64,000 nucleotides of DNA from Cellulomonas composti. GTDB taxonomy: Bacteria > Actinomycetota > Actinomycetes > Actinomycetales > Cellulomonadaceae. The notes under the pieces were generated by a model that was given only the letters and a program-made list of their open reading frames with translations, ran no database searches and was not told the DNA's origin. The translations under genes were made by a program, and so were the position numbers. The stretch is taken from contig NZ_BJWG01000001.1 in the NCBI RefSeq assembly GCF_007990245.1, positions 62,001 to 126,000 on the forward strand. Direction: 5' to 3'. Shown piece by piece: positions 10,082-24,574 of the stretch (the first letter of the stretch is position 1; each line of letters starts with the position of its first letter).

Positions 10082-10636
10082 TCAGGCGCCGAGGGTGACG
10101 TCGGCGGTCGATGCCACGTCGGCCGTGCGGCCCGGTCCGCCCTGGAACTGCCAGTACAGGTTGGTGTGCGCGACGACGAGGTCGGGCGTGGGGGCTCCCC
10201 ACTGCGAGAAGTCGTCGGTCGTGTGGGCGTCCGATACGAGCGTGACGTCGTAGCCGCGGACGAACCCGCCGTGCAGCGTGGAGCGCACGCACGCGTCGGT
10301 CTGTGCACCGGTCACGACGAGCCGGCCCACACCCTGCTCGGCGAGGGTCGCCTCGAGGGTCGTGTCCTCGAAGGAGTCGCCGTAGCGCTTCTCGACGATC
10401 GGCTCGTCGGGAGCAGGCGCGAGCTCGGGGGCGATCTGCCACTGCTCGCTCGCGAGCGGGAGCTCGTCGCTCGAGTGGCGGACCCACACGACGGGGGTGC
10501 CCTGCTCGCGCGCGCGGTCCACGAGAGCGGCGATGTTGGCGAGCACCTCGTCACGGCGGTAGGCCTGGGCGACGACGCCGACCTGCACGTCGACGACGAG
10601 GAGTGCGGTTCCTGGGCGGTTCTCGAGAGTGGTCAT
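10082..10636 (-). CDS. Isochorismatase-like cysteine hydrolase
   Basis: A 184-residue isochorismatase-fold hydrolase with the complete triad: D16 (ALLVVDVQVG), K83 (VEKRYGDSFE) and C116 (VTGAQTDACVRST). Members hydrolyse isochorismate, nicotinamide, N-carbamoyl compounds and others; this sequence alone does not fix the substrate. It starts in a spacer shared with the divergent alpha/beta hydrolase at 10759. That spacer carries one of the four CCCG-N3-CGGGTGA sites, so it may belong to the LuxR-centred regulon. Confidence 0.85.
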   Translation of the reverse strand: MTTLENRPGTALLVVDVQVGVVAQAYRRDEVLANIAALVDRAREQGTPVVWVRHSSDELPLASEQWQIAPELAPAPDEPIVEKRYGDSFEDTTLEATLAEQGVGRLVVTGAQTDACVRSTLHGGFVRGYDVTLVSDAHTTDDFSQWGAPTPDLVVAHTNLYWQFQGGPGRTADVASTADVTLGA

Positions 10637-10706
10637 GGCACCAGTGACTCACAGGGGTCTGACACGCACCCCTCCCGCACCATGCGGACGCGCGGTCACC
10701 GGCGGA

Positions 10707-10722
10707 TCACCCGTGTCGGGCG
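10707..10722. promoter_or_regulatory. Shared LAL-block operator candidate, site 1 (variant)
   Basis: On the minus strand this reads CGCCCGACACGGGTGA, continuing with T. It keeps the invariant half ACGGGTGA and the CCCG of the other arm but differs at the outer two bases from the sites at 13047, 21517 and 22232. It sits between the divergent genes 10636 (70 nt away) and 10759 (36 nt away). It is weaker evidence than the other three sites. Confidence 0.45.
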
Positions 10723-10758
10723 ACACACGCGGGGCGCCCGACGTGCGAGGCTCAGAGG

Positions 10759-11631
10759 ATGGTGCACAGCGAGACGGCGGTGGACGGCTGGACCGAGCGC
10801 TGGGTGGTCGTCGAGGGTCACGAGATGCTGGTGCGTTGCTCCGACGAGGTCGAGGGCGCGACGCCTCAGGTGCACATCCACGGGTTCGCGATCTCGGGCC
10901 GGTCGCTCATGCCGACGGCCCGACTGCTGGCGAGCCGCGCGACGTGCTACGTGCCCGACCTGCCGGGATTCGGCCGTTCACCCGGCTGGGGATACACGCT
11001 GGGCGTGCCGGCGCTCGCCGACGCGGTCGTCGGGCTGCTCGACGCGCTCGAGCTCGACAAGGCGGTGCTCGTCGGCAACTCGATGGGCTGCCCGATCTCG
11101 CTCGAGGTCGCACACCGCGAACCCGACCGGGTCGAGCGGGTCGTGCTGTGCTCGCCGGCCGGAGGTGTGCACAACCAGCCCCTCGTGCGCGCGGTGCAGC
11201 AGCTCGTGCGCGACGCGGTGCGGGAGAGCCCGCGGATGGCGAGCGTGGCGGTGCCGGACTACCTGCGCTTCGGACCCGTGAACGCGATGCAGCTGTTCGC
11301 AGAGCTCATGCGCTTCCCCTCGATGGAGCGGCTGCTGCGCATCACCGTGCCCACGCTCGCGATCGTCGGGACGCGTGACCCGATGATGCCGCCGCCGTGG
11401 CGCGTGCGCGAGCTCGCCCGGCTCGCCCCCGACAACCTGACGGTCGCCGTGATCCGCGACGCCGCGCACGCGATGAACTTCAGCCACCCCGAGGAGCTCG
11501 CCCGCGTCGTGTCCTGCTGGCTCGACGGGATCGACATCACCGACGAGGTTCTCGACGAGGCAGCCACGGCCGGCACGCCGGGGGCGAACGGCACCGCGCG
11601 TCGCCCGCGGGTGTTCCAGGTGCGAGGCTGA
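10759..11631 (+). CDS. Alpha/beta-fold hydrolase
   Basis: A 290-residue alpha/beta hydrolase with the full catalytic triad: nucleophile S108 in GNSMG, acid D207 in GTRDPMM and H237 in DAAHAMNF; the oxyanion region is HIHGFAISG. The family includes esterases, C-C hydrolases and haloperoxidase-like enzymes, and the substrate is unknown. The C-terminal tail (about residues 260-290) is low-complexity. The ATG follows GAGGCT by 6 nt, suggesting a leaderless message. It is divergent from the cysteine hydrolase with a shared operator candidate between them. Confidence 0.85.
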   Translation: MVHSETAVDGWTERWVVVEGHEMLVRCSDEVEGATPQVHIHGFAISGRSLMPTARLLASRATCYVPDLPGFGRSPGWGYTLGVPALADAVVGLLDALELDKAVLVGNSMGCPISLEVAHREPDRVERVVLCSPAGGVHNQPLVRAVQQLVRDAVRESPRMASVAVPDYLRFGPVNAMQLFAELMRFPSMERLLRITVPTLAIVGTRDPMMPPPWRVRELARLAPDNLTVAVIRDAAHAMNFSHPEELARVVSCWLDGIDITDEVLDEAATAGTPGANGTARRPRVFQVRG

Positions 11632-11649
11632 CTCACCCCTGGAGCGCAC

Positions 11650-11684
11650 GACAGCCCCGGTCGCTCGAGGCGCTCGGGGCTGTC
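11650..11684. terminator. Bidirectional intrinsic terminator candidate
   Basis: A perfect 10-bp stem (GACAGCCCCG / CGGGGCTGTC) with a 15-nt loop lies between the convergent genes ending at 11631 and 11704. There is no clear U tract, as is usual in very GC-rich actinobacteria. Confidence 0.6.
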
Positions 11685-11703
11685 GGCGTCTGCGAAGGAA
11701 TGC

Positions 11704-12027
11704 TCAGCCGAGAAGCTGAGCCTTCTGCGCGTCGAACTCCGCCTGCGTGAGCACGCCCGCGTCGCGCAGCCCGGCGAGCTCCTTCAGGTGGGCGATCTTC
11801 TCGTCCATCGTGAGCTCGGGCTCCGCCGGCTCGGGCGCCTGGGTGACGTAGACCGGCGCCGGTGCGTACGTCGGCTGCGGTGCGGCGTAGGTGGGCTGCG
11901 GGGCGTACTGCGCCGCCTCCTGCTCGGCCCACCGACCCTGCTGGCGGTGGTGCACGCGCCCCGAGACCGCACTCGCCGTACCGGCGACCACGGCCGTGCG
12001 GGCGACCCCGCGGATCAGTCCTGGCAT
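11704..12027 (-). CDS. Small SHOCT-domain protein
   Basis: A 107-residue protein. A short N-terminal hydrophobic/Ala segment (ARTAVVAGTASAVSG) is followed by a basic patch, an Ala/Pro/Tyr/Gln-rich linker (repeats like YAPQPTYAAPQPTY) and a C-terminal SHOCT helix pair (IAHLKELAGLRDAGVLTQAEFDAQKAQLLG). SHOCT domains are short oligomerisation modules of unknown specific role, often on stress-linked membrane proteins. The ribosome site GAGGAGGACGAC precedes the ATG. It lies 49 nt downstream of the DUF6325 fusion gene on the same strand, so it is probably in the operon read from the operator at 13047. A second SHOCT protein lies at 22321. Confidence 0.8.
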   Translation of the reverse strand: MPGLIRGVARTAVVAGTASAVSGRVHHRQQGRWAEQEAAQYAPQPTYAAPQPTYAPAPVYVTQAPEPAEPELTMDEKIAHLKELAGLRDAGVLTQAEFDAQKAQLLG

Positions 12028-12076
12028 GTCGTCCTCCTCGTTCCTGTCCTGGTGCTCGTCGAGATCGCTGTGGGTG

Positions 12077-12991
12077 TCACTCGTCCTCGGACGCGTCGAG
12101 CGCCGCGAGGATCGCCTGGATCGGGATGCGCCCGCCGGCGACCAGCTGGCCGCCGCCCTTGCGCAGCGCAGCGGCGAAGGGCGCCGCCCACGCGTTCTCG
12201 TACACCAGGACACCGGCCGCGCTGCCGGGCTCGAGCGCGGCACCGACCTCCTCGAGGTCGTCGTCGCCGAGGAGCGAGGACGAGGCGCCCGCGAAGATCG
12301 TCATGTCGACGTCGCCGCTGGTGTCGAGGTCGTGCAGCTCGACACCGGTGACGATCCCGTCGGCGTCCTTCGTCACGAAGGCCAGGTCGAGCACGCGGAT
12401 GATGCCGCGGTCCACCAGATCGACGAGCAGCGGGAACGCCGTTCCGTCGAGCCGATCCTTCGGGAACTCGACGACGAGGTAGTCGACGGGTCCCATTACC
12501 TCCAGGTCGACATCCATCATTTCCTCCTCACGCACCGGGGCGGTCCCGGTGCCGTTCGTGCGTGGGGTCGACGACCCCGCGCGGTGCATCAGCCGGTCGG
12601 GCGCGCGGCGCGACCGGTCGTCGTGGCTCGCAGTCTCGACCCGAACGAGCAGGTCGGCCAGCTGGACGTCTTCGAGATGGTAGGTGTGCGAGCTCGACCG
12701 TAGCGCGGCGTTCTCGTCGCCGAGCATCTGGGCCATCAGTGGTCCGACGGCGCCGCGCACGACGATCTCGACGTCCGGACGTCCCCCCGCGTCGGTGGTG
12801 CGCAGCCCGACGACGTCGAGCCCGAGCGAACCCATGCGCTGCAGGAGTCCGAACAGCGCGGCGGTGTCGCGGATCTCCGCCTCGAGAACGGTGTGGTCGG
12901 CCGCACGACGCACACCGGAGTCCTCCAGGTACTCGAGCGCTTCCTCGCGCACCGGTCCCTCGATCGTGAGCTCGATCGTCCTGGAACGCAC
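12077..12991 (-). CDS. DUF6325-family protein fused to an N-terminal domain of unknown function
   Basis: One open frame of 304 codons from a GTG at 12991 with a strong ribosome site (GGAGGAGGGCGC). Residues 1-110 form a small alpha/beta domain (RTIELTIEGPVREEALEYLEDSG to HLEDVQLADLLVRV), not recognised. Residues 113-157 are a polar linker. From MMDVDLEVMGPVDYLVVEF onward comes a complete DUF6325 domain, normally a stand-alone protein of about 140 residues. A second perfect AGGAGG (12523-12528) precedes two adjacent ATGs at 12520 and 12517, so the DUF6325 part can also be made alone. No stop codon separates the two parts. It is divergent from the LuxR gene, with the operator candidate 55 nt before the GTG. 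Confidence 0.75.
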   Translation of the reverse strand: MRSRTIELTIEGPVREEALEYLEDSGVRRAADHTVLEAEIRDTAALFGLLQRMGSLGLDVVGLRTTDAGGRPDVEIVVRGAVGPLMAQMLGDENAALRSSSHTYHLEDVQLADLLVRVETASHDDRSRRAPDRLMHRAGSSTPRTNGTGTAPVREEEMMDVDLEVMGPVDYLVVEFPKDRLDGTAFPLLVDLVDRGIIRVLDLAFVTKDADGIVTGVELHDLDTSGDVDMTIFAGASSSLLGDDDLEEVGAALEPGSAAGVLVYENAWAAPFAAALRKGGGQLVAGGRIPIQAILAALDASEDE

Positions 12992-13046
12992 GCGCCCTCC
13001 TCCGTCGTGGCTGCGTCCACTCTGTGCGGGCCGCGCCCGTGGGTAA

Positions 13047-13062
13047 TCACCCGTTCCGGGTA
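13047..13062. promoter_or_regulatory. Shared LAL-block operator candidate, site 2
   Basis: On the minus strand this reads TACCCGGAACGGGTGA: inverted arms ACCCG/CGGGT with a 3-nt spacer. The gap to the GTG of the DUF6325 fusion gene is exactly 55 nt, the same as for site 3 and the ATPase. On the other side it ends 24 nt before the luxR ATG and so overlaps that gene's promoter, which suggests autoregulation. Confidence 0.65.
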
Positions 13063-13086
13063 TGGGGACGACGTAGGCTTCGGCTC

Positions 13087-15726
13087 ATGTCGGTAGAGGT
13101 CGCGAGCACCGTTCGCGCCGCGGTCGCGGCGCATGGCGCTCCGGCGATGCTGCGGGCGCGTTGCACGGTTCCGACACCCGCGCGCGTGGTGCGTCGCGCC
13201 GCCCTCGACGAGCTGCTCGAGAATGCGGTCGACCGTCGGCTCACGGTCGTCTCGGCAGGACCTGGCTGGGGAAAGACCGTCGCTGTGGCGCAGTGGGCTG
13301 CGACGACGGACCGCGCGGTGGCGTGGCTCACGCTCGAGGCGAGCAACGACTCGTCGGTGCCGTTCTGGTCCGAGGTGCTGGCGGCCCTGCGCGCGAGCGA
13401 GGTCGTCCCCGCCGATCACCCGTTGGCCGCCCTGCGGGTGCCGGCCGTCGAGACCTCCGAGTTCCACGCCCAGCTCTTCCACGCGCTCGAGGCACTTCCG
13501 GAGCGCGTCGTCCTCGTCCTCGACGACTTCCACCACGTGACGCGGCGCGAGATCCTCGACGTGATCGACGAGCTGCTGCGCTACGACCTGCCGCTGCGCC
13601 TCGTCGTCGTCACGCGCATCGACCCGCTGCTGCGCCAGCACCGGCTGCGGGTCGAGGGGGAGCTGAGCGAGGTGTTCGCCGCCGATCTCGCGTTCGACGG
13701 GACCGCGGTCGCCGAACTCGCGCGGTCCCGGGGACGTGAGCTCACGGGCGACGACGTCGCTCGGGTGCTCGAGCAGACGGACGGCTGGGCGGTCGGCGTG
13801 CGGCTCGTCATGCCGGCACCCGGACACCCTGGCGCGACCGTCGTGCCCCAGCAGCACGCGTCCGAGTACCTCGTCGCCGAGGTGCTCGACCGCCTCGAGC
13901 CGGACATGCGGCACGTGCTGCTCATGACCAGCGTGACGACGGCGGTGTGCGAGGACCTCGTGGAGGCTGTCCTGCCCGGAGGCGAGGCGAGGCGACGGTG
14001 GCGCGCCTTCGTCACCCGCAACGCGTTCGTCACGCCGATCGGCGCCGACGGCACCTGGTACCGCTACCACCCGCTGCTGCGCGACATGCTGCTCGGCCGG
14101 CTCCGTGCGGACGCGCCGCAGGACGCGCTGCGGGCACACCGCCGCGCGGCTCGATGGCTTGCGTCGCACGGCGAACCGGTGCTCGCGCTCGTGCAGGCCA
14201 GGCACGCGGGGGACTGGGCGTTGTTCGGGCGGCTGTTCGTCGAGGTCGGCTCCGTCCCGCTGGTCTCCGCCGCGCGGGGGCAGATGATCGACCTGCTCGG
14301 GTCGATCCCGTACGCGGAGCTGGAGCCCGATGTCGGGATCGAGCTGTGCGTCGCGTCGCTCGCGGTCGCGACCGGGCGCTTCGCCGCAGCGACCACCCAC
14401 GTCATGCGGGCTCGCGCGCTCCTCGACGACGATGCCGACGCGGCCGACACCGCGCTGCTGGAGATCGTCGCGGCGACCGCGTCCCGGGGAGCGGGCGACC
14501 CGGAGGCGGCGCGCCGCGCGGCCGCCGCGGCGCTCGTCGCGCTCGACGGGGCCATCCGACCGTCGGCCGCATGGCCCGGCTACCACGTGCTCGCGGTGAA
14601 CAGCCACGCCGTCGGACTGCTGTGGCGCGGCGACGTCGAGGAGGCGCGGCGCCAGCTCGACGCCCTCGTGGCCACGACCCGGACGATGGCGCCGCTGCTG
14701 CCCGTGCTCAACGCCCGCTCGTACCACGCGTTCGCCGAGGCTCTCCTCGGGCGGCTCGACCTCGCGCGCGAGCACGGCCTGCAGGTGATCGACGACGCCC
14801 GCGATCTCGGCTGGGCCTCCCACCTGCAGTGTCGTCCGGCGTACGCGGCCGTCGCCTGGGCCGCGCTGCTGCGTGGCGTCGAGGACGAAGCGGACCGGAT
14901 GCTCGCACTGGGGCTCGCGAGCGACCTCAACGGCCAGGAGCCGCAGACGACGCTCGCCGTCCGGTTGATGCAGGCGATGGTCGCGGTCCAGCGCGGTCGG
15001 TTGCGTGCGGCGGAGGCTGCCCTGCGCTCGGCCGGCCCGTTGGACGACACGATCCCGCCGGCGCTGGCGGACCTCGCCGCGCGCGTGGTGCGCGAGGTCG
15101 CGCAGCGCGCGGGCCGCGCCGAGCTCACCGATGGCACGACGATCGATCCGACGACCGCGCTGGGCCACGTGCACGACGCGCAGGCGCACCTCGACCGAGG
15201 CGACACCGGCGATGCGATCACGTCGGCGATCGAGGCGAGCGTGCTCGCGGATCGTGAGCAGGACCCGCTCGTGCAGGTCGAGGCGCTGCTCATGCTCGCG
15301 CGCGCGTACGAGAGGACAGGGACGACCGCCTCGTGCGACGAAGCGCTCGAGCGGGCGCTGCGCGTCGCGGCCGAGCCGGTGCTCGTGCGCCCGTTCCTGC
15401 TGCTGCCGACCGCGAGCCTGGTGGCCAGGACACGCACACTGCTGGACACGCATCCCGGCGAGCTCGCGAACCGCCTGCGCACCCGGCTGCTCGTCGACCA
15501 GCGGCACCACGAGCACGAGCCGGAGCCGCTGGTGGAGGCGCTCACCAGTCGTGAGCTCGCGATCCTGGGCGCCCTGCCCACCATGGGGACCAACTCGGAG
15601 ATCGCCTCCGACTTCTTCGTGTCGGTGAACACCGTCAAGGCGCACCTGAAGTCGCTGTACCGCAAGCTCGGCGTCGACAGCCGCCGTGAGGCCGTGCGGC
15701 GCGGGCGCGAGCTCGGCCTGCTCTGA
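13087..15726 (+). CDS. Large ATP-binding LuxR-family (LAL/MalT-like) transcriptional regulator
   Basis: An 879-residue LAL regulator. The N-terminal P-loop is SAGPGWGKTVAVAQWA (Walker A), the Walker B is VVLVLDDFHHV, and the STAND-type ATPase runs to about residue 330. A helical repeat (TPR-like) middle follows, and the C-terminal LuxR helix-turn-helix is LTSRELAILGALPTMGTNSEIASDFFVSVNTVKAHLKSLYRKLGV. Such proteins act as ligand- and ATP-dependent activators that oligomerise on DNA. The ATG at 13087 is 7 nt after TAGGCT (leaderless). It lies at the centre of the block whose spacers share the CCCG-N3-CGGGTGA site, making it the obvious candidate to bind them; that is inference. Confidence 0.92.
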   Translation: MSVEVASTVRAAVAAHGAPAMLRARCTVPTPARVVRRAALDELLENAVDRRLTVVSAGPGWGKTVAVAQWAATTDRAVAWLTLEASNDSSVPFWSEVLAALRASEVVPADHPLAALRVPAVETSEFHAQLFHALEALPERVVLVLDDFHHVTRREILDVIDELLRYDLPLRLVVVTRIDPLLRQHRLRVEGELSEVFAADLAFDGTAVAELARSRGRELTGDDVARVLEQTDGWAVGVRLVMPAPGHPGATVVPQQHASEYLVAEVLDRLEPDMRHVLLMTSVTTAVCEDLVEAVLPGGEARRRWRAFVTRNAFVTPIGADGTWYRYHPLLRDMLLGRLRADAPQDALRAHRRAARWLASHGEPVLALVQARHAGDWALFGRLFVEVGSVPLVSAARGQMIDLLGSIPYAELEPDVGIELCVASLAVATGRFAAATTHVMRARALLDDDADAADTALLEIVAATASRGAGDPEAARRAAAAALVALDGAIRPSAAWPGYHVLAVNSHAVGLLWRGDVEEARRQLDALVATTRTMAPLLPVLNARSYHAFAEALLGRLDLAREHGLQVIDDARDLGWASHLQCRPAYAAVAWAALLRGVEDEADRMLALGLASDLNGQEPQTTLAVRLMQAMVAVQRGRLRAAEAALRSAGPLDDTIPPALADLAARVVREVAQRAGRAELTDGTTIDPTTALGHVHDAQAHLDRGDTGDAITSAIEASVLADREQDPLVQVEALLMLARAYERTGTTASCDEALERALRVAAEPVLVRPFLLLPTASLVARTRTLLDTHPGELANRLRTRLLVDQRHHEHEPEPLVEALTSRELAILGALPTMGTNSEIASDFFVSVNTVKAHLKSLYRKLGVDSRREAVRRGRELGLL

Positions 15727-15739
15727 GCGCCGGCAGCAG

Positions 15740-15760
15740 CCGAGCGTCGGAGGCGCTCGG
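15740..15760. terminator. Terminator candidate between luxR and the MHS transporter
   Basis: A perfect 7-bp stem CCGAGCG / CGCTCGG with a 7-nt loop lies in the 39-nt spacer between convergent stop codons. It is short, and there is no U tract. Confidence 0.45.
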
Positions 15761-15765
15761 GCGCG

Positions 15766-17088
15766 TCAGGCCGCGTGCCCCGTGCGCGACCACGTGGCCG
15801 CCGCGACGAGAGCCGCGAGGAGCCACGTCACCGCGTAGAGCCCGACGAGCTGGACGCCGGCGCCCTCGACGAGCGACGCGACGAGCGGCGCGGAACCGCC
15901 GACGACGGCGCTCGCGGCGGTCAGGGAGTACGCGATCCCCGACGCGCGGACACGCGCGGGAAGCACGTCGCCGAGGGCGGACTGGATGACGAACGCCCCG
16001 AGCGCGACGCCCGCGAGGGTGTCGGCCGCGAACAGGCCTGCTGCGCCGCGACCCATGAGCCAGTCGCACGCGAGCCAGGCCACCGTCATCGTGATCGCCC
16101 CCCCGAGCAGGACGGGGCGTCGCCCGATGCGGTCCGAGAGTCGCCCGCTGAGCACCGCGGACGCGGCGAGCGCGAGGGTCCCGACCACGGAAGCCGTGAG
16201 CGCGACGTCCAGCGCGTACTCGCCGTCGGTCACGAGCCGCGCGGGCAGGTAGACGAACCAGATGTTGTACGAGCTGCTGAAGGCCGCCGACAGCGCGAAG
16301 CCCCGCACGATGTGCGGCAGGTAGGGCCCGATCGCGGGTCGAGGCCCAGGCCCACCCGCCGCGGCGTCGTCGGGCGTCTCGAGGTCGGGTGACTCGAAGT
16401 CGGGCGACTCCGCGGCGCGGCGCAGCAGACCCACCGCGAGCAGGCCGAGCGGCAGGGCGACGAGGAACGGCACGCGCCAGCCCCACGCGAGCAGCGCGTC
16501 GTCGTCGAGCGCGGCACGCACGGCCGCGACCGCCCCCGTGCCGGCGGCGAAGCCGAGCGCGGTCGTCGCGAGGTGCGTCCCGCCCCACAGCCCGCGTGCG
16601 CGCGGCGGTGCGTGCTCGACGAGGTAGGCGACCGAGACCGGCATCTCGCCACCGGACGAGAAGCCCTGCACGAGCCGCAGGACCAGAAGGGCCACGGTCG
16701 CGGCGACCCCGATCGCCGCCCACGAGGGCAGCAGGCCGATGCCCGCCGTCGCGGCGGTCATGAGCCCGAGCATGCTCGTGAGCACACGGCGCCGACCGCG
16801 CCGGTCCGCCACGCGTGCGACGAGCACGGCGCCGAGCGGCCGCGCGAGGAACGAGATCGCGAACACCGCGTAGACGCCGGTGAGGGCAGCACCGCCGCCG
16901 GGGGTCAGCACCGCCGCGAGCAGCACGATCGACGCCCCGAAGACCGCGAAGTCGTACCACTCGATGAGGTTGCCCGCGGAGCCGACGATGCGCGAGACCC
17001 GGGCCCGGCGCGTGGCCGTGGCCGTGACCGGGCGTGCCCTGCTCGTCGTGCTCGTCGTGCTCGTCTCGCTCGTCGTGTCGGTCTTCAC
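15766..17088 (-). CDS. MFS transporter, metabolite:H+ symporter (MHS/ProP-like) family
   Basis: About 440 residues with 12 predicted membrane helices. The family hallmark GNLIEWYDFAVFG lies in helix 1, RVADRRGRRRVL in the 2-3 loop, and a matching GRLSDRIGRRPVL in the second half. The N-terminus is a Thr/Ser-rich tail. MHS members import organic acids, betaines or alpha-ketoglutarate; the substrate here is unknown. The GTG at 17088 was chosen because it begins just after GGGGCGAGG, while longer extensions are Arg/Pro-rich nonsense-like sequence. It is third in the apparent ATPase-DHA2-MHS operon, 52 nt after the DHA2 gene. Confidence 0.82.
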   Translation of the reverse strand: MKTDTTSETSTTSTTSRARPVTATATRRARVSRIVGSAGNLIEWYDFAVFGASIVLLAAVLTPGGGAALTGVYAVFAISFLARPLGAVLVARVADRRGRRRVLTSMLGLMTAATAGIGLLPSWAAIGVAATVALLVLRLVQGFSSGGEMPVSVAYLVEHAPPRARGLWGGTHLATTALGFAAGTGAVAAVRAALDDDALLAWGWRVPFLVALPLGLLAVGLLRRAAESPDFESPDLETPDDAAAGGPGPRPAIGPYLPHIVRGFALSAAFSSSYNIWFVYLPARLVTDGEYALDVALTASVVGTLALAASAVLSGRLSDRIGRRPVLLGGAITMTVAWLACDWLMGRGAAGLFAADTLAGVALGAFVIQSALGDVLPARVRASGIAYSLTAASAVVGGSAPLVASLVEGAGVQLVGLYAVTWLLAALVAAATWSRTGHAA

Positions 17089-17140
17089 CCTCGCCCCTTC
17101 GTCGCGACCGAAACTGTAGTCGCGGGACGGGACGCGACGA

Positions 17141-18736
17141 TCAGCCGCCCAGCACCGACTCCGCGGCCTCGTTGGGGGTCGGGTCGGGCTGGCGTCGCAT
17201 CCGCAGCGCGCCGACGACGCCCGCGAGACCGGCCAGCAGCGGCACCAGGAGGGCGATCTGCAGCGCACGCGGGCGGACCTCGGTGTTGATCCGCATGATC
17301 TCGGCACTGACGTCGGCCGGCTCGTCGGCCAGCAGGGTCTGGAGCTGCGCGTCGCTCATCAGCTGGGCGTCCTCCTTGAGGACGCTCGCGACATGCGCCT
17401 TGTCGTCGGGCGGGAGCACGTCGCTCGCCTGCGTCTGGGTGGTGAAGCCGGAGACGACGGCGGCCAGCATCACGGCACCCGCCAGCGCGAGGCCGAACGA
17501 CAGCCCGAACGAGCCGGTCGCGGAGTTGACGCCGGCCGCCTCGCTCACGCGCTCCTGGCTGACGGGCGAGAGCGTGTAGTTGTTGAGCTGCGAGACGAGC
17601 AGTCCGAGCCCGCTGCCCGCGATCACCAGCGGCACCGCGAGCCACCAGCCGGCGGTGGCGCGCGGCACGATCGGGAGCAACGCGCCCACTCCGACGACGA
17701 GCAGCGAGAACCCGGTGAGGACCACCGTTGCCGGGCGGCGGCGTCCGGCGCGCTTCCCGGCGAGCAGCGCCGCCGCGAACATGCTCAGCGACAGCGGCGC
17801 GAGCGAGAGGCCCGCGAGCATCGCGTTGTAGCCGAGCACCATCTGCAGGAAGATCGGCAGCGAGATCATCGCGCCGCCCAGCGCGATCTGCTGGAGCATC
17901 TGCTGCGTCACGCCGAGCCGGAACAGCGGCGAGCGGAACAGGTCCGGGTCGATCAGCGTCGCGCGTGCGCGGCGGTGGCGCACGACGAGCCAGCGGGCGA
18001 GCCCGAGGAGCGCGCCGACACCCAGCACGATCAGTGCCGCGACGGACTCCCCGCCCTCCTGCCAGACGAGGACGCCGAGCACCACGCCACCCATGCCGAC
18101 CACGGACAGCGCCGCCCCGAACAGGTCGATCGAGCGTTCGCCGACGTACGGTGCATCCTTGACGAGCCCGGCACCCGAGAGCACGACGAGGATCACGACC
18201 GCCTCGAGACCGAACGCGACGCGCCATGACAGGTACGTCGTGATGAAGCCGCCGACGAGCGGACCGACGGCCGCCGCGATCGACGCCGCCGCGCCGACCA
18301 GCGCGTAGACGCGCTTGCGGACAGGCCCGGGGAAGTTGCCGTGGATGAGGGACTGCATCGCGGGCAGCAGCAGCGCGGCGCCGAGCCCGCCGACCACGGC
18401 CCAGCAGATGACCACGATCGTCAGCCCTTGCGCGACGGTCATCGCGAGGGCGCCGACGAGGTAGCCGCACAGACCCAGGAGGTAGGCGCGCTTGCGGCCG
18501 AACAGGTCGCCGATCTTGCTGCCGATGAGGATGAACGCGGCCGAGACGAGCGCCTCGAGGGCGATCGCCGTCTGCACGCCGCTCACGGTCGTCCCGATGT
18601 CGTGCACGACGGCCGAGATCGAGACGTTCATGATCGACGTGTCGACGACGAGCACGAACATCGCCATCGCGAGCAGGATCGCGAGCCGACGCTGCGGCCC
18701 GGCGATCGTCGTCGAGTCGCCCGTGTCGGTGCTCAT
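17141..18736 (-). CDS. MFS drug exporter, DHA2 (EmrB/QacA) family
   Basis: 531 residues with about 14 membrane helices, typical of DHA2. Motif A is GSKIGDLFGRKRAYLLG; helix 1 carries MFVLVVDTSIMNVSISAVVHDI, and motif C is VGPLVGGFITTYLSWRVAF. A periplasmic-side loop near residues 430-490 (ASDVLPPDDKAHVASVLKEDAQL) precedes the last helix. Such pumps export cationic drugs or lipophilic compounds with the proton gradient. The start ATG is 10 nt after the ATPase stop, and GAGGGG overlaps the intercistronic gap, so translation is probably coupled to the ATPase. Confidence 0.88.
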   Translation of the reverse strand: MSTDTGDSTTIAGPQRRLAILLAMAMFVLVVDTSIMNVSISAVVHDIGTTVSGVQTAIALEALVSAAFILIGSKIGDLFGRKRAYLLGLCGYLVGALAMTVAQGLTIVVICWAVVGGLGAALLLPAMQSLIHGNFPGPVRKRVYALVGAAASIAAAVGPLVGGFITTYLSWRVAFGLEAVVILVVLSGAGLVKDAPYVGERSIDLFGAALSVVGMGGVVLGVLVWQEGGESVAALIVLGVGALLGLARWLVVRHRRARATLIDPDLFRSPLFRLGVTQQMLQQIALGGAMISLPIFLQMVLGYNAMLAGLSLAPLSLSMFAAALLAGKRAGRRRPATVVLTGFSLLVVGVGALLPIVPRATAGWWLAVPLVIAGSGLGLLVSQLNNYTLSPVSQERVSEAAGVNSATGSFGLSFGLALAGAVMLAAVVSGFTTQTQASDVLPPDDKAHVASVLKEDAQLMSDAQLQTLLADEPADVSAEIMRINTEVRPRALQIALLVPLLAGLAGVVGALRMRRQPDPTPNEAAESVLGG

Positions 18737-18746
18737 CGTGCGCCCC

Positions 18747-21461
18747 TCACGCCTCGGCGCGACGACGGGTCGCGAACCGCATGATCGCCTTGCCGATCTC
18801 GGCGATCACGAGGTACGCGAGCGTGATCAGCAGGCACGCGCGCCACTGCTCGCCGCTGAGCTCGGTGGTCCCGAAGATCCGCTGCAGCCCGCCCAGCGTC
18901 GTCACGAGGAAGGTCAGGCCGATGCAGATGAGCATGAGCATGACGAACCGGCCGTTCTTCAGCGTGTCGCTGGAGAAGATGCTCGCGAGCGGGTCGCGCC
19001 ACTGCATCGCGACGACGACGTGCATGAGCGACATGGCCGTCAGGCCCATGGTCGTGGCGACCGTGAGGTCGTAGCGGTCCTCGCCCCACGCGACGACGAG
19101 CAGCGTGCCGACCGAGATGAGCACGCCGCCGATGGCGAGCCGCGCGCCGAGCGAGCGGCCGATCACCGGTTCCTCGGGCGAGCGCGGCTTGCGCAGCATG
19201 AGGCCGGCGGTCGCGGCGTCGAAGCCGAGGCCGATCGCGAGCAGCACGTCGATCGCGAAGTTGATCCACAGGATCTGCAGCGGCGTCAGCGGCGTGCCGT
19301 TCGCGACCGTGAAGACGCCCGCGCCCACGAACGTGAGGATGAACGCGGTGAGCACGACCATCTGGAAGCGGATGTACTTCATCAGGTTGTCGTAGAGCCC
19401 GCGGCCACCCTCGACGGCCGCGACGATCGTCGCGAAGTTGTCGTCCGTGAGGATCATCTCGGCCGCGTCCTTGGTGACCTCGGTGCCCGTGATGCCCATC
19501 GCGACGCCGATGTCGGCGCGGGTCAGTGCCGGCGCGTCGTTCACGCCGTCACCGGTCATCGCGACGATCTCGCCGCGCCGCTTGAGCACGTCGACGAGCC
19601 GGACCTTGTCCTCCGGGGCGACGCGCGCGACGACGCCGATCTCGTCGATCTCGGCCTCGAGCTGCGCGTCGGGCATCGCGGCGAACTCCGCGCCGGTCAG
19701 CGCACGGCCCTCGATGCCGAGCTGCTGCGCGATCGCCGCGGCGGTCGTCGCGTGGTCGCCCGTGATCATCCGCACGCGGATGCCTGCCTCGCGGCACTCG
19801 GCGATGGCCGCGGCGGCCTCGCGCCGGGGCGGGTCGACGATGCCGACGAGCGCGAGGATCTCGAGGCCCTGGACCAGCGCGAGCAGCTCGTCGGGCCCGG
19901 CGTCCACGAGGTCCGCGGCCGCGACGTCGCGCTGCGCGACCGCGAGGACACGCATGCCCTCGGCGGCGAGCAGGTCGTTCTCCTCGAGGACCTTCGCGCG
20001 GTCGCCGTCCTCGAGGACCGTGGCGAGACCGCCGTCGGCCCGCGCGTGGGTCGAGCGGGCGAGCAGCACGTCCGGCGCGCCCTTGACGTAGCACCGCACG
20101 CCGCCGTCGATCTCGTGGAACGTCGCCATCAGCTTGTACTCGGCGTCGAACGGCACCTCGGCGATGCGCGGGAACGTGCGTCGCGTCTCCTCGACGTCGA
20201 GTCCCGCCTTGGCGGCGAGCACGACGAGCGCGCCCTCCGTCGGGTCGCCGACGCATGCGCCGTCGCGGACCACCGCGTCGCTCGCGAGCGCCATGGGCAG
20301 CGCGAACGGTTCGAGCGGGAGGTCGCCGGTGCCCGCGACCGTCATGATCCGGCCGACCGTCGAGTAGCCCTCGCCGTCCACGGACAGGCGGTGTCCGGCG
20401 ACGACCATGCGGCGCGCGGTCATCTGGTTGAGCGTCAGGGTGCCGGTCTTGTCGGAGCAGATCGCCGAGGTCGAGCCCAGCGTCTCGACCGACTTGAGCC
20501 GCTTGACGATCGCGCCCTTCTCGGCGAGCTGGCGCGTGCCGAGCGAGAGCAGCATCGTGACGACCGCGGGCAGGCCGGTCGGGATCGCGGCGATCGCGAG
20601 GCTGATGCCCACGACGAACAGCTCGTCGAACTCCTGGCCGCGGGCGAGCCCGAGCGCGACGATCGCGACCAGCGCGATCGCGGCCATCGTCGTGATGAGG
20701 ATCGTGATCCGGTCGAGCTGTTTGGTGAGCGGCGTCTTGTCCTGCTCGACGCCGGTGAGCATCCCGGAGATGCGCCCGACCTCGGTCGACATGCCCGTCG
20801 CGGTGACGACCATCTCGCCGCGACCGCGGGTGACCTGCGAGTTCATGTACGCCATGTCGACCCGGTCGCCCAGCGGGACGTCCTCACCGGGCACCGCGCC
20901 GATCGACTTGGGCACCGGCGCGCTCTCGCCCGTCAGGCCCGACTCCTCGATCTCGAGCGCCGCCGCGACGAGGATGCGGCCGTCCGCCGGCACCTTGTCG
21001 CCCGCCTCGAACCCCACGATGTCGCCGGGCACGAGCTCCTCGGCCGGGACGATCACCTGCTGGCCGTCGCGCCGCACGCGCGCGTTCATGACGAGCATCT
21101 GGCGCAGCGAGGCGACGCTCTCGGCGGCCTTGCCCTCCTGGTGCAGGCCCATCAGCGCGTTGAGCACCGTCAGGCCCAGCACGACGACGCCCGTCGTCAT
21201 GTCCTGGAGCGCGATGATGCTGACGAGCGCCGCACCGACGAGGACGAGCTGCATGAGGTCCTTGTACTGGCGCGCGAACGCCTGCCACGCCGGCTCCTTC
21301 GCCTCCTCGGCGAGGGCGTTCGGTCCGTAGCGGGCGCGCCGCTCGGCCACCTGCTCGGACGTGAGGCCGAGCGCGGGGTCCACGCCGAGTTCGCCGCACA
21401 CCTGCTCGGCGGCTACGGCGTGCGGGCGGACGGCGACGCGGGAAGCCGTGGGTGTGGTCAT
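18747..21461 (-). CDS. P-type cation-transporting ATPase, P2 (Ca2+/Na+-type)
   Basis: 904 residues with all P-type landmarks: actuator SGLTGESAPV, phosphorylation site SDKTGTLT (D337), PEGL-like helix motif AIPTGLPAVV, nucleotide-domain KGAPDVLL, and hinge MTGDGVNDAPALTRADIG. The ten-helix layout and N-terminal cation-ATPase domain are those of P2A/P2B pumps related to SERCA and mycobacterial CtpF. Transport of Ca2+ is likely; Na+ or K+ is possible. The ATG at 21461 follows GGAGAAGGAG. It is first in the apparent operon with two MFS genes. An operator candidate lies exactly 55 nt upstream, which fits co-control with the LuxR block. Confidence 0.93.
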   Translation of the reverse strand: MTTPTASRVAVRPHAVAAEQVCGELGVDPALGLTSEQVAERRARYGPNALAEEAKEPAWQAFARQYKDLMQLVLVGAALVSIIALQDMTTGVVVLGLTVLNALMGLHQEGKAAESVASLRQMLVMNARVRRDGQQVIVPAEELVPGDIVGFEAGDKVPADGRILVAAALEIEESGLTGESAPVPKSIGAVPGEDVPLGDRVDMAYMNSQVTRGRGEMVVTATGMSTEVGRISGMLTGVEQDKTPLTKQLDRITILITTMAAIALVAIVALGLARGQEFDELFVVGISLAIAAIPTGLPAVVTMLLSLGTRQLAEKGAIVKRLKSVETLGSTSAICSDKTGTLTLNQMTARRMVVAGHRLSVDGEGYSTVGRIMTVAGTGDLPLEPFALPMALASDAVVRDGACVGDPTEGALVVLAAKAGLDVEETRRTFPRIAEVPFDAEYKLMATFHEIDGGVRCYVKGAPDVLLARSTHARADGGLATVLEDGDRAKVLEENDLLAAEGMRVLAVAQRDVAAADLVDAGPDELLALVQGLEILALVGIVDPPRREAAAAIAECREAGIRVRMITGDHATTAAAIAQQLGIEGRALTGAEFAAMPDAQLEAEIDEIGVVARVAPEDKVRLVDVLKRRGEIVAMTGDGVNDAPALTRADIGVAMGITGTEVTKDAAEMILTDDNFATIVAAVEGGRGLYDNLMKYIRFQMVVLTAFILTFVGAGVFTVANGTPLTPLQILWINFAIDVLLAIGLGFDAATAGLMLRKPRSPEEPVIGRSLGARLAIGGVLISVGTLLVVAWGEDRYDLTVATTMGLTAMSLMHVVVAMQWRDPLASIFSSDTLKNGRFVMLMLICIGLTFLVTTLGGLQRIFGTTELSGEQWRACLLITLAYLVIAEIGKAIMRFATRRRAEA

Positions 21462-21516
21462 GGCGACTCCTTCTCCATACTCCGGGCCAACTTCACAGGT
21501 GAATGGTCGCGATGCC

Positions 21517-21532
21517 TCACCCGTGGCGGGTA
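21517..21532. promoter_or_regulatory. Shared LAL-block operator candidate, site 3
   Basis: On the minus strand this reads TACCCGCCACGGGTGA, identical over 16 nt to site 4 at 22232. It ends 55 nt before the ATPase ATG, the same gap as site 2 to its gene, and lies just after the stop of the upstream membrane-protein gene, so the ATPase operon has its own control point. Confidence 0.7.
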
Positions 21533-21547
21533 CCGCGACCCGAGTCG

Positions 21548-22165
21548 TCAGTGCAGTGCGTGCTTCAGCACGATCATCGCGATGCCGAACATGCCGGTGC
21601 TGACGGTCGCGCCGACGCGGCCCCACCCGGTCAGCCCGCCCGCGCGTGACATCCGCCAGCCGACGATCAGCAGCAGCACGACGTTCACGACGAGAGCGAT
21701 GTCGACCCCGCGTTCGGTCTCGACCCCGAGCAGGGCCTCGGTGACGAGGACCCCCGCCGGGATCAGGCACGCGGCAACGAGCGGTAGCCCGTCGCTGAGC
21801 ACCATGCGGCGCTCCTGCCGCGTGAGGTCGCGGCGGTGGATCGTCCTGGCCGCGATCCAGTGCGCGTAGGACTCCGCCGCCCAGTACACGAAGAGCGTCA
21901 GCACGAGGGCGAGTGCGATGCGCCCGAGGCCGAACGACGACGGCGCGGCCGCGAGGACCGAGCCGCTGACCACGAGCCCGTACAGGTGGGACGCGCGTCG
22001 TCGGTGCAGCCGCTCGGGTGACGTCTCGTGCTCGGCCGTCGCCGTCAGGTCGCGTTGGATGTCGGCACGGACCACTTCGGGGTCGACGACCTCGTCCCGG
22101 TCCGGACCGGCCGTGGGGTGCAGCGGTGCCGGCGTCGGCGGAACTGGCCCGGGGGTGTCGGTCAC
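21548..22165 (-). CDS. Small polytopic membrane protein, unrecognised
   Basis: 205 residues from the GTG at 22165 (AGGA eight nt upstream). An N-terminal cytoplasmic stretch of about 60 residues, rich in Pro at first, leads to YGLVVSGSVLAAA. About five membrane segments follow (IALALVLTLFVYWAAESYAHW, LPLVAACLIPAGVLVTEALL, VDIALVVNVVLLLIVGW, GRVGATVSTGMFGIAMIVL). I do not recognise the family. It is divergent from the SHOCT gene at 22321, with operator site 4 between them. Confidence 0.6.
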   Translation of the reverse strand: MTDTPGPVPPTPAPLHPTAGPDRDEVVDPEVVRADIQRDLTATAEHETSPERLHRRRASHLYGLVVSGSVLAAAPSSFGLGRIALALVLTLFVYWAAESYAHWIAARTIHRRDLTRQERRMVLSDGLPLVAACLIPAGVLVTEALLGVETERGVDIALVVNVVLLLIVGWRMSRAGGLTGWGRVGATVSTGMFGIAMIVLKHALH

Positions 22166-22231
22166 CGAAGCATCCTGACACCTGACGCCGCAGGACGACA
22201 GATCACGCGACACCGTGCGCGAGAGGACGAC

Positions 22232-22247
22232 TACCCGCCACGGGTGA
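22232..22247. promoter_or_regulatory. Shared LAL-block operator candidate, site 4
   Basis: TACCCGCCACGGGTGA on the plus strand, followed by T. It ends 73 nt before the ATG at 22321, and on the other side lies 66 nt from the GTG at 22165. It is identical to site 3 across all 16 positions despite being in a different spacer. Confidence 0.7.
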
Positions 22248-22320
22248 TGGACACTGCAGTCGGGGCACGGAAGGTGATGGACTAACGGCACCCGTGCCGA
22301 TCGACGACAAGGAGAGACTG

Positions 22321-22701
22321 ATGGAGTTCTGGGACTGGTTCTGGCTCATGGTGTGGTGGTTCTGCTTCTTCGCCTACCTCATCCTGCTGTTCCAGATCAT
22401 CGGTGACCTGTTCCGCGACACCGCGACGAGCGGGTGGGCGAAGGCGTTCTGGACGATCGGCCTGATCGTCATGCCGTTCCTCATCGCGCTGATCTACATC
22501 ATCGCGCGTGGCCAGGGCATGGCCGAGCGGCAGATGAAGGACGCCGTGCGCGTGCGCAACGCGCAGGACGAGTACATCCGCGCGACCGCCGGGCCGAGCC
22601 GTTCCGCGGCGTCGGACATCGCCGAGGCGAAGTCGCTGCTCGACTCGGGCGCGATCACCGCCGACGAGTTCGCGTCGCTGAAGGCCAAGGCCCTCGCCTG
22701 A
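22321..22701 (+). CDS. PLDc_N-type membrane protein with C-terminal SHOCT domain
   Basis: 126 residues. Two membrane helices, the first strikingly aromatic (EFWDWFWLMVWWFCFFAYLI) and the second FWTIGLIVMPFLIALIYIIA, form the module also found ahead of phospholipase D nucleases (PLDc_N). A coiled linker (MAERQMKDAVRVRNAQDEYIR) and a SHOCT domain follow (IAEAKSLLDSGAITADEFASLKAKAL). The start is set by AAGGAG 8-9 nt upstream; a GTG at 22294 lacks a ribosome site. Second SHOCT protein of the block, followed by a strong terminator. Confidence 0.82.
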   Translation: MEFWDWFWLMVWWFCFFAYLILLFQIIGDLFRDTATSGWAKAFWTIGLIVMPFLIALIYIIARGQGMAERQMKDAVRVRNAQDEYIRATAGPSRSAASDIAEAKSLLDSGAITADEFASLKAKALA

Positions 22702-22959: not shown

Positions 22960-23625
22960 TCAGGCCTCGCCGGGCCCGGCGGCCTGGGCGGCCTGACGGC
23001 GCGACCGGACGACGAGCGGGATACCGACGCCGAGCCCGACGACGAGCAGCCCCAGGAGCCACCACACCCACGCGGGCGTGCCGCCCTCGTCCGTCGGCGT
23101 CGACTCGTCGGCCGAAGCGGACGGCGACGGCGTGACCTCAGGGGTCGGGGTCGGGGTGGGCGTGGGTGTCGGCGTCGGCGTAGGGGTGGGCGTCGGAGTC
23201 GGCGAGGGCGTCGGGCTGGGCGTCGGCGACGTGGTCGCCGGCGGGATCGGCGCCTCGGCGCTCTCGGTCGGCTCCGGCTCCTGCGTCGGCTCCTGCGTGG
23301 GCTCCTGCGTGGGCTCCTGCGTCGGCTCCTGCGTGGGCTCCTGCGTCGGCTCTGACGTCGGAGCCGGCGTGCCCTCCGACGTCCGGGTCGGGCGGGGTAG
23401 CGGGTTGCGGGTGCGGGTCGGCTCGGGTGACGGTTCGGCGCTCGGCGTCGGCTCGGCGCTCGGCGTCGGCCGGGGCGGGATCGAGAACGACGGCGACGGC
23501 CGCGCGGTGCGCGTGGAGTCGGGACGGTTGATCCCCTCGCCGTCGCACGACGTCACCAGCAGCCCGACGACGAGCACGCCCACCACGGCCACCCACCGGC
23601 GCACGGCCGGCCTCGTTGCACTCAC
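22960..23625 (-). CDS. Repeat-rich lipoprotein with C-terminal membrane anchor
   Basis: 221 residues. The signal peptide ends in a lipobox LLVTSC (lipid-modified C27). The mature part is almost wholly low complexity: TPSAE and PRPTRTS segments, six PTQE repeats, then a long Thr-Pro run and a Ser/Pro/Ala tract. It closes with a membrane helix (WVWWLLGLLVVGLGVGIPLVV) and a basic tail RSRRQAAQ. There is no LPXTG, so it is not a sortase substrate. It may be tethered at both ends as a wall-spanning stalk. No enzymatic domain is visible. Confidence 0.7.
   Translation of the reverse strand: MSATRPAVRRWVAVVGVLVVGLLVTSCDGEGINRPDSTRTARPSPSFSIPPRPTPSAEPTPSAEPSPEPTRTRNPLPRPTRTSEGTPAPTSEPTQEPTQEPTQEPTQEPTQEPTQEPEPTESAEAPIPPATTSPTPSPTPSPTPTPTPTPTPTPTPTPTPTPEVTPSPSASADESTPTDEGGTPAWVWWLLGLLVVGLGVGIPLVVRSRRQAAQAAGPGEA
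23276..23347. repeat. 12-bp tandem repeat, six units, inside the lipoprotein gene
   Basis: GGCTCCTGCGTS is repeated six times without interruption (plus strand), encoding the six PTQE units on the minus strand. Being a multiple of three, unit gain or loss would change protein length without frameshift. A (TP)n tract with similar short-period DNA lies at about 23140-23220. Confidence 0.85.
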
Positions 23626-23765
23626 GTCAAGCCTCCGTCAGTCTCCGACGAGAACGCTGCGGCCGGTGCCGGAACGCGTGGGCCCGACCGTACAGAGTGC
23701 AACCCTCCAGGTGGAAGTACGCCACGACACCGTGACCGACTTGGGACGGTCGACGTCGCCCGATC

Positions 23766-23801
23766 GGCCGACGTCGTCGCGGTCTCCACGAGTGTCCGGA
23801 G
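23766..23801. repeat. Left copy of tRNA-Leu 3'-end direct repeat (att-like)
   Basis: 36 bp matching 25760-25795 at 32 positions in the same orientation. The matching core includes AACGAGTGTCCGGAG with one change. In tRNA orientation the copy holds the last nine nt of tRNA-Leu (CTCCGGACA) plus 27 nt of its downstream flank. It abuts the vanW start and marks the far edge of the islet. Confidence 0.75.
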
Positions 23802-24574
23802 CGGGGCGTGTCGCCTACGTTGCGGGGGAGTGGCAGTGGCGGCGGGCCGGGGTCCCCGCACGGCTGGACCGTGCGGCATCGGACTGCTTCGAGCACGAGG
23901 TCGCGTCCCACAGCACGCCGATCTACCGCGAGCTGGCCGGTGTGGACCGTCGGCTGCAGGAGAACAAGGCGGTCAACCTTGCGATCGCCGCCACGCGGCT
24001 GGACGGCATCGTGCTGCGGCCCGGGCAGCGGATGTCGTTCTGGCGTCTGGTCGGCAGACCGAGCTACCGACGCGGGTTCAAGGACGGCTTGGTCCTGCGG
24101 CAGGGCCAGGTCGACGAGGCAGTCGGCGGCGGGCTGTGCCAGATGACCAACCTGCTGTACTGGATGACCGTGCACTCGCCGTTGACCGTGGTGGAGCGTT
24201 GGCGGCACACCTTCGACGTCTTCCCGGACAACGGCCGCACGCAACCGTTCGGCAGCGGTGCGACGTGCTCCTGGCCGGTTCTCGACCTGCAGATCGAGAA
24301 CCGCACGGCTGCGACGTTCAGGCTGTCGCTGACGGTCGAGCAGACGGACCTGGTCGGAGCGTGGACCAGCGACCAGCCGCGGTCGAACACCTACGAGGTG
24401 TACGAGGCCGAACATGTGATGACGAACGATCTGCCTGGTGTCTTCACTCGGCGCAACGTGCTGAGGCGACGGATGCTCGATCTGGCTGGCAACGAGGTGA
24501 GCGACGAGCTCGTCGCGGTCAACGAGGGCCGGCTGATGTATCAGCCGTTCCTGGAGGCCGGCGGCGCCGGATAG
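23792..24574 (+). CDS. VanW-family protein
   Basis: About 260 residues with the VanW domain: VNLAIAATRLDGIVLRPGQRMSFWRLVG, then GGGLCQMTNLLYWMTVHSPLTVVERWRH and the RTQPFGSGATCSWPVLDLQ block. VanW was named from glycopeptide-resistance clusters, but its biochemical role is unknown; no other van gene is here. The start is uncertain: GTG 23792 and GTG 23732 are both possible, neither with a good ribosome site. The region between lies largely inside the att-like repeat, so the 5' end may have been remade by recombination. Third-position GC looks lower than in the flanking genes. Confidence 0.8.
   Translation: MSGAGRVAYVAGEWQWRRAGVPARLDRAASDCFEHEVASHSTPIYRELAGVDRRLQENKAVNLAIAATRLDGIVLRPGQRMSFWRLVGRPSYRRGFKDGLVLRQGQVDEAVGGGLCQMTNLLYWMTVHSPLTVVERWRHTFDVFPDNGRTQPFGSGATCSWPVLDLQIENRTAATFRLSLTVEQTDLVGAWTSDQPRSNTYEVYEAEHVMTNDLPGVFTRRNVLRRRMLDLAGNEVSDELVAVNEGRLMYQPFLEAGGAG

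Follow-up and report, generated by a model that had tools for sequence, protein, structure and literature searches.

A predicted clustered regulon of a MalT-type LAL regulator in Cellulomonas composti, marked by a shared palindrome at a near-constant distance from putative −10 elements

The 64,000-nt window analyzed here (Cellulomonas composti, NZ_BJWG01000001.1, positions 62,001 to 126,000; genome of 3.54 Mb) contains a block of genes arranged around a large ATP-binding regulator of the LuxR family (LAL), and four spacers of this block carry versions of the same inverted repeat. LAL regulators are common and large, and to our knowledge few LAL operators are known. The regulator of the block, an LAL of the MalT type (879 aa; 13087..15726, forward strand), ends in a LuxR/GerE helix-turn-helix (PF00196, E value 9.7e-13, residues 818 to 871). 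At its N-terminus there is an NTPase domain (AAA_22, residues 50 to 169) with the Walker A motif GPGWGKT, and its length is that expected for a LAL. The closest solved structure is that of MalT (8bob, E value 1.6e-29 over residues 34 to 381).

The spacer upstream of this luxR gene holds the predicted operator ATACCCGGAACGGGTGA (13047..13063, reverse strand), located by motif scan of the window sequence. On the reverse strand it faces a two-gene unit, with a predicted −10 element, CAGAGT (13019..13024), 22 nt past the palindrome. The first gene encodes a DUF6325 protein with an extra N-terminal domain (12077..12991, 304 aa; PF19850 at residues 166 to 300), and the gene downstream encodes SHOCT protein 1 (11704..12027; PF09851). 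The other face of the operator overlaps the predicted luxR promoter, as the initial annotation of this DNA had proposed: a putative −10 element, TAGGCT (13074..13079, forward strand), lies 10 nt past the palindrome and ahead of the ATG at 13087.

A second predicted operator, GTACCCGCCACGGGTGA (21517..21533, reverse strand; motif scan), faces the gene of a P2-type cation ATPase (18747..21461, reverse strand) across a predicted −10 element, GAAGTT (21489..21494, reverse strand). The gene of MFS transporter 2 (major facilitator superfamily; 531 aa, PF07690; 17141..18736, reverse strand) lies 10 nt past the ATPase gene, an order also found in several orthologous loci. MFS transporter 1, assigned by Pfam, is the final gene of this strand run (15766..17088, reverse strand). 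It was the best match of no called gene in 20 orthologous loci, and a homolog at 44.6% identity lies near the LAL of a genome from outside the family, G203.

The third predicted operator, CTACCCGCCACGGGTGA (22231..22247, forward strand), is located between the genes of SHOCT protein 2 and of the membrane protein MEM210 and faces the former, with GAAGGT (22270..22275, forward strand) as predicted −10 element. SHOCT protein 2 (22321..22701, forward strand) has a membrane N-terminus and matches PF09851 slightly below the cut-off. Its likely ATG start gives MEFWDWFW, and relatives begin with MDFWDWFW; a longer GTG alternative lies at 22294. MEM210 (21548..22180, reverse strand; start uncertain) gave no match in the Pfam scan. 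The fourth and weakest predicted operator, TCGCCCGACACGGGTGA (10707..10723, reverse strand), lies between two divergent hydrolase genes. It faces an isochorismatase-family hydrolase (10082..10636, reverse strand; PF00857) with the predicted −10 element CATGGT (10679..10684, reverse strand), and on the other side a possible −10 element, GAGGCT (10747..10752, forward strand), offset by one base, precedes the ATG at 10759 of an alpha/beta hydrolase (10759..11631, forward strand; PF00561 and PF12697). Both luxR (13074 to 13087) and the alpha/beta hydrolase gene (10747 to 10759) look leaderless, the predicted −10 elements ending 6 to 7 nt before the ATG.

The sequences, coordinates and orientations of the four sites given in the initial annotation were all correct when checked on the window sequence. 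A search for an exact GGGTGA preceded, across five bases, by TCACCC with up to two mismatches returned six matches in the window, two coding and four intergenic; the latter are the same four sites, in agreement with the earlier impression that other intergenic spaces hold no comparable match. The form originally proposed, CCCG-N3-CGGGTGA, does occur at the four intergenic sites, but a fifth exact copy at 2633 to 2646, inside a called gene, had been overlooked. The genome-wide scan suggested at that time gave 14 copies of this form, against 2 for the reversed pattern. With an A before CGGG (CCCG-NNA-CGGGTGA) only the four window sites remain in the genome. This central A is unique to them and is not conserved in relatives, and it was dropped as an essential feature. 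All four sites have an exact promoter-proximal half, with one or two mismatches in the distal half, which explains why ACGGGTGA had looked invariant. The gaps of 55 nt to the start codons of the DUF6325 gene (12991) and of the ATPase gene (ATG at 21461) are likewise exact by sequence; they were rejected as a signature because distances to start codons vary across relatives.

Elsewhere in the genome, two weak additional sites have a −10 box facing a gene, one at C5:175397-175413 for a putative membrane protein encoded close to a LuxR-type gene, and one at C13:37436-37451 for a lipoprotein-like protein of 395 aa. Another site has a box that faces no gene start (L214), and four have no box (L269, L273, L277 and L019). 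A second pair of DUF6325 and SHOCT1-like genes was seen on contig C11 at about 24.5 kb, with its motif match inside the SHOCT1-like gene.

Conservation was assessed in a set of 21 loci made up of the window and 20 neighborhoods of orthologous LAL genes, referred to as A-type (about 39 to 60% identity to the window LAL); the A-type loci L188 and L189 are outside these counts. Genes in relatives were called with our own codon-model caller, and their starts are approximate. Orthologs of the ATPase, MFS2, DUF6325, SHOCT1, SHOCT2, MEM210 and alpha/beta hydrolase genes recur in shuffled order while the palindrome stays in the spacers, so that the motif is kept in the homologous spacers of LAL loci, a comparison for which the initial annotation had called. 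Across loci the motif resolves to TCACCC-N5-GGGTGA, which was also the commonest intergenic palindrome of six-base halves in a de novo search (19 of 21 loci).

An upstream site with an exact proximal half was found, window included, for 19/19 DUF6325 genes, 18/19 ATPase genes and 18/20 SHOCT2 genes of A-type loci. In the separate count of upstream sites across the 21 loci, sites were recorded for 3/4 alpha/beta hydrolase genes (window included), for 4/9 MEM210-like genes and for 8/25 LuxR genes, the last figure including shorter LuxR-type genes. MFS2 (own site in only 2/11) and SHOCT1 (0/12) were discarded as direct targets; having few or no sites of their own, they are more likely to lie downstream in operons, and SHOCT1 is probably on the same transcript as DUF6325. 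LALs of Arthrobacter at about 30% identity (L045 to L050 and L053) were considered as carriers of the system and set aside as an apparent outgroup in which no motif site was seen: these loci had no exact ACCCG-N3-CGGGT or CCCG-N3-CGGGTGA and no shared cargo among the called genes, the gene calls being incomplete to the point that the LAL itself was missed in L045.

GC-rich inverted repeats are common at the GC content of the window (0.70 to 0.79), and the number of one-mismatch matches in the window is only moderately above that for shuffles (15 against a mean of 6.3 and a maximum of 14). The repeat might on these grounds have arisen by chance or from the composition of GC-rich spacers, or it might be a terminator-like structure. 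This explanation is already contradicted by the controls and is hardly credible: when up to one mismatch to TCACCCGN3CGGGTGA is allowed, the 21 loci hold 34 sites in spacers and 5 in coding DNA, whereas 60 palindromes with shuffled halves of the same composition gave a mean of 0.03 intergenic sites (maximum 1) and 0.38 coding sites (maximum 9). The reversed control is low as well, the half-site that is conserved contains T and A, and the distance to the −10 element is fixed.

This distance became apparent when the sequences that follow the sites were aligned, where an A at +24 and a T at +28 stand out. A24/T28 is present at 43 of the 77 facing intergenic sites and A25/T29 at a further 17, which gives 60 sites with nAnnnT, against a mean of 1.04 and a maximum of 8 for the remaining offsets. 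After thinning of similar sequences to 59 sites, 30 and 15 (45 in total) remain at these two positions, with a mean of 0.73 and a maximum of 4 elsewhere. All four window sites have the offset of 24 (CAGAGT, GAAGTT, GAAGGT and CATGGT). The conserved spacing is therefore the 22 to 23 nt from the palindrome to a −10-like nAnnnT, rather than the 55-nt gap before the start codon. A −10 element at this distance predicts a transcription start site about 34 to 35 nt past the palindrome, with the palindrome centered at about −43, which is where class II activators bind.

The same geometry was more frequent at intergenic than at coding matches. Among the matches listed, 60 exact palindromes had their locus retrieved (30 loci from each of two genome scans), 49 of them intergenic and 11 coding. 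A −10 box, on one or both sides, accompanies 30/49 of the former and 1/11 of the latter, where 7.6% is expected by chance; leaving out the eight palindromes of A-type LAL loci gives 22/41 and 1/11.

A −10-like element at a fixed distance, together with a proximal GGGTGA that is the most constant part of the motif, would also be expected of an extended −35 element that an alternative sigma factor recognizes. We regard this as very unlikely, given that the palindrome is two-sided with five free central bases, that the −10 element has the usual nAnnnT form, and that the half-site changes with the type of LAL.

This last point comes from loci in which similar cargo is found beside a different LAL. 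Group B/C LAL loci (L160, L161, L164, L166, L169, L171 and L178) belong to the same family and resemble the window in cargo, with DUF6325-type genes in 7/7, SHOCT1 in four, and ATPase (about 60% identity) and MEM210-like genes in three of the seven. They differ from it in the helix-turn-helix, which reads NTLKFHLK, and in their motif arrays, GGGTGG-N7-CCACCC or CCACCC-N6-GGGTGG. Upstream of the DUF6325 and ATPase relatives beside NTLKFHLK-type LALs (8 loci), the GGGTGA type was found in 0/12 regions and the GGGTGG type in 10/12, the latter motif having been derived from the same B/C loci on which it was scored, while the zero for GGGTGA is not so fitted. The corresponding regions beside A-type LALs have a GGGTGA-type site in 37/38 cases. 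Since similar cargo beside another type of LAL lacks the GGGTGA motif and mostly carries another one, the motif follows the regulator.

These observations suggest that the block is a clustered regulon in which TCACCC-N5-GGGTGA stands 22 to 23 bases before the predicted −10 elements, and that the LAL at its center probably binds this palindrome and activates the genes. The shared LAL regulon proposed in the initial annotation thus receives strong comparative support, from the motif in homologous spacers, the fixed promoter geometry and the way in which the motif tracks the type of LAL.

Besides the fitting of the GGGTGG-type motif just mentioned, several observations weigh against this assignment. 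The GGGTGG type also matched 1/20 SHOCT2 regions of A loci, the site in the hydrolase spacer is weak, and of the 21 loci only the window has the isochorismatase gene. Near matches with one mismatch occur in all 60 genomes of the genus (3 to 32 each; control, 0 to 6). The mean number per genome is 11.6 in genomes without a LAL at an E value of ≤1e-20 (n = 22), 14.9 with a distant LAL (n = 14) and 19.3 with an A-type LAL (n = 12), 12 of the 60 genomes being dropped as they were outside the LAL survey. That survey, with four candidates scored per genome, found the LAL at an E value of ≤1e-60 in 31 of 200 family genomes, C. composti included; the exact TCACCCGN3CGGGTGA is present in 14/31 genomes with an A-type LAL and in 24/169 others. 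The motif is also shared by LAL groups D and G, so that the palindrome may be read by a clade of LALs rather than by the protein of the window alone. In C. composti itself there are 22 GerE-domain matches, three of them, besides the LAL, in open frames of 899 to 1142 aa that are possibly distant LALs.

A frequent motif had been named at the outset as a finding that would count against the regulon. One-mismatch matches are indeed not rare in the genus, and this objection holds in part. Raw motif counts were set aside as a weak test of LAL dependence (P = 0.005 against LAL-less genomes), and the case therefore rests on promoter geometry and on the exchange of regulators. In one genome without such a LAL (G071), 6 of the 9 readable sites out of 24 are coding and none has a −10 box, so that chance matches are plausible there.

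The other GerE-domain proteins, some in long open frames, the motif beside groups D and G and the near matches in genomes without a LAL would be expected if another LuxR-type regulator or a LAL paralog read the palindrome, the adjacent LAL being a mere member of the regulon. We consider this improbable, because the type of motif follows the type of LAL where the cargo is similar (37/38 for A-type against 0/12 for B/C-type). All 21 A-type loci, moreover, contain at least one site with a −10 box, and 61 of their 70 sites have one; the control palindrome has 0 sites there. In C. composti the only LAL match at an E value of ≤1e-15, among 33 candidates scored, is the one surrounded by the four sites. 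Within group D, boxed sites face the LAL's own gene in L121, L129 and L130, and the sites of L154 and L182 have no box.

Beyond the family, the highest number of exact palindromes among 297 genomes of the order (10) is that of G203. A LAL search in 16 genomes other than C. composti, all chosen because they are rich in palindromes, also gave its best match in G203 (36% identity, E value 7e-106). Allowing one mismatch raises the count in G203 to 35 sites, with 2 for the control. A box is present on at least one side at 9/10 exact sites. The neighbors of these boxed sites include two SHOCT2 genes, DUF6325 with SHOCT1, DUF1269, DUF7144, a sulfatase, a sulfate permease (SulP), a ClC channel, a PNPOx protein and a SpoIIAA-like protein; the unboxed exact site adjoins a DUF1254/DUF1214 gene. 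The locus of the LAL itself in G203 has a single site without a box, which adds to the points against the assignment.

The closest described system is the MRLGR regulon of the MalT regulator ACSP50_3915 in Actinoplanes sp. SE50/110, a genetically proven regulon with the site TCATCC-N5-GGATGA (Droste et al. 2020, PMC7567727). In both systems, as far as the main text of that paper shows, a MalT-type LAL lies inside its own clustered regulon with a gene order shuffled between relatives, and the regulon contains many unknown or membrane proteins and no maltose genes. In the block, no gene for maltose transport or use was found among the 10 proteins scanned with Pfam. The palindromes, too, are alike in consisting of two hexamers 5 nt apart that overlap the −35 region, here by prediction. 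The 3′ end of the Actinoplanes site lies 34.4 ± 1.0 nt from the transcription start site (PMC7567727), a distance measured there and similar to the one predicted here. The half-sites differ by one base each, GGATGA there and GGGTGA here, and a GGATGA-type half-site was found in 0/58 upstream regions of A loci. SHOCT and ATPase genes do not appear in the main text of Droste et al., to which this comparison is confined, the gene list being in the supplement. The system had initially been called undescribed. This holds for the motif and the cargo, DUF6325 included, which were absent from the literature searched, but the kind of regulon is known from Actinoplanes; what is new, as far as that main text shows, is the half-site and the cargo.

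Palindromes of the TCATCC-N5-GGATGA type, or hybrids with one mismatch, were also seen in seven LAL loci (L157, L158, L159, L165, L172, L175 and L177), most with a −10-like element at 24 or 25, and the one in L159 precedes a SHOCT2 gene.

Escherichia coli MalT has the same LAL architecture as the window protein, and its box, GGA[TG]GA, is one base from GGGTGA according to the part of PMC9628970 consulted. The E. coli boxes are, however, described in PMC6099782, seen in part, as direct repeats, unlike the palindrome of the window. For the LAL studied in PMC9628970, the same part of that source states that no consensus is predictable.

Activation was demonstrated in Actinoplanes by deletion and overexpression (PMC7567727, main text) and is a prediction here. 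The LAL might instead bind the palindrome and repress, or act both ways, by blocking the −35 region. Such a role would fit the luxR promoter, where the predicted −10 is 10 nt from the palindrome and the −35 would be covered, and the LAL SCO6993 is reported in PMC9628970, in the part considered, to repress actII-ORF4 and redD. We nevertheless judge predominant or dual repression to be unlikely, since the strict offset of 22 to 23 nt and the intact proximal half are what an activator in contact with RNA polymerase needs, and since the Actinoplanes regulon of equal geometry is activated (PMC7567727).

Under activation by the central LAL, the protein would work as a MalT-like, ATP-dependent switch that oligomerises once a signal binds its sensor region. 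Bound at about −43, the oligomer would recruit RNA polymerase, as in class II activation. Because the predicted luxR −10 lies only 10 nt from the palindrome, binding there would cover the −35 and might, at a guess, give negative feedback on luxR. The atypical P2 ATPase, the MFS exporters, the SHOCT and DUF6325 proteins and the hydrolases would then contribute to ion and envelope homeostasis. The neighbors of the G203 sites, SulP and ClC transporters among them, taken with the P2 ATPase, may favor such a role; the ion/envelope stress system proposed in the initial annotation is likewise presumptive.

The ATPase has the P-type core DKTGT and the cation ATPase domains by Pfam and motif survey, and its solved relatives are Ca ATPases, the best being lmo0841 of Listeria (LMCA1; 9euq, E value 1.6e-155). 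The two proteins are both of the P2 type but differ in M4, where lmo0841 has IPEAL and the window protein IPTGLP, with Thr in the PEGL-like motif. PEGL is the M4 motif of SERCA. All 24 ATPases listed (window, L100 to L119, L161, L171, L178, L188 and L189) have IPTGLP, without an acidic residue of the PEGL type, and M5 lacked acidic residues in the 16 of the 24 in which the search pattern caught it. With the acidic ligand of M4 missing, calcium transport cannot be assumed, and the IPTGLP ATPases may form a subfamily with an altered ion site.

We tentatively extend these results to the order, as a possibility somewhat short of an even prospect. Its actinobacteria may share an unrecognized family of MalT-like LAL switches whose promoters follow one grammar, with two hexamers separated by five bases and placed 22 to 23 nt before the −10, and whose half-site codes have diverged (GGGTGA, GGATGA, and GGGTGG with altered spacing). 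The cargo (atypical P-type ATPases, SHOCT, DUF6325, DUF1269, DUF7144, SulP and ClC) would have been rewired between switches, forming a general response for ion and envelope homeostasis whose protein-DNA code can be read. Comparative genomics supplies here a predicted LAL operator with its polarity, promoter distance and target set in many genomes, as well as a natural exchange of regulators in which the motif changes and similar cargo stays. Several DUF families and a P-type ATPase with a putatively altered ion site also gain a function that can be tested.

Beyond SHOCT protein 2, a called open reading frame at 23078 to 24574 contains a long GV dipeptide repeat, and a TP-rich frame lies on the opposite strand (22960 to 23625, reverse strand).

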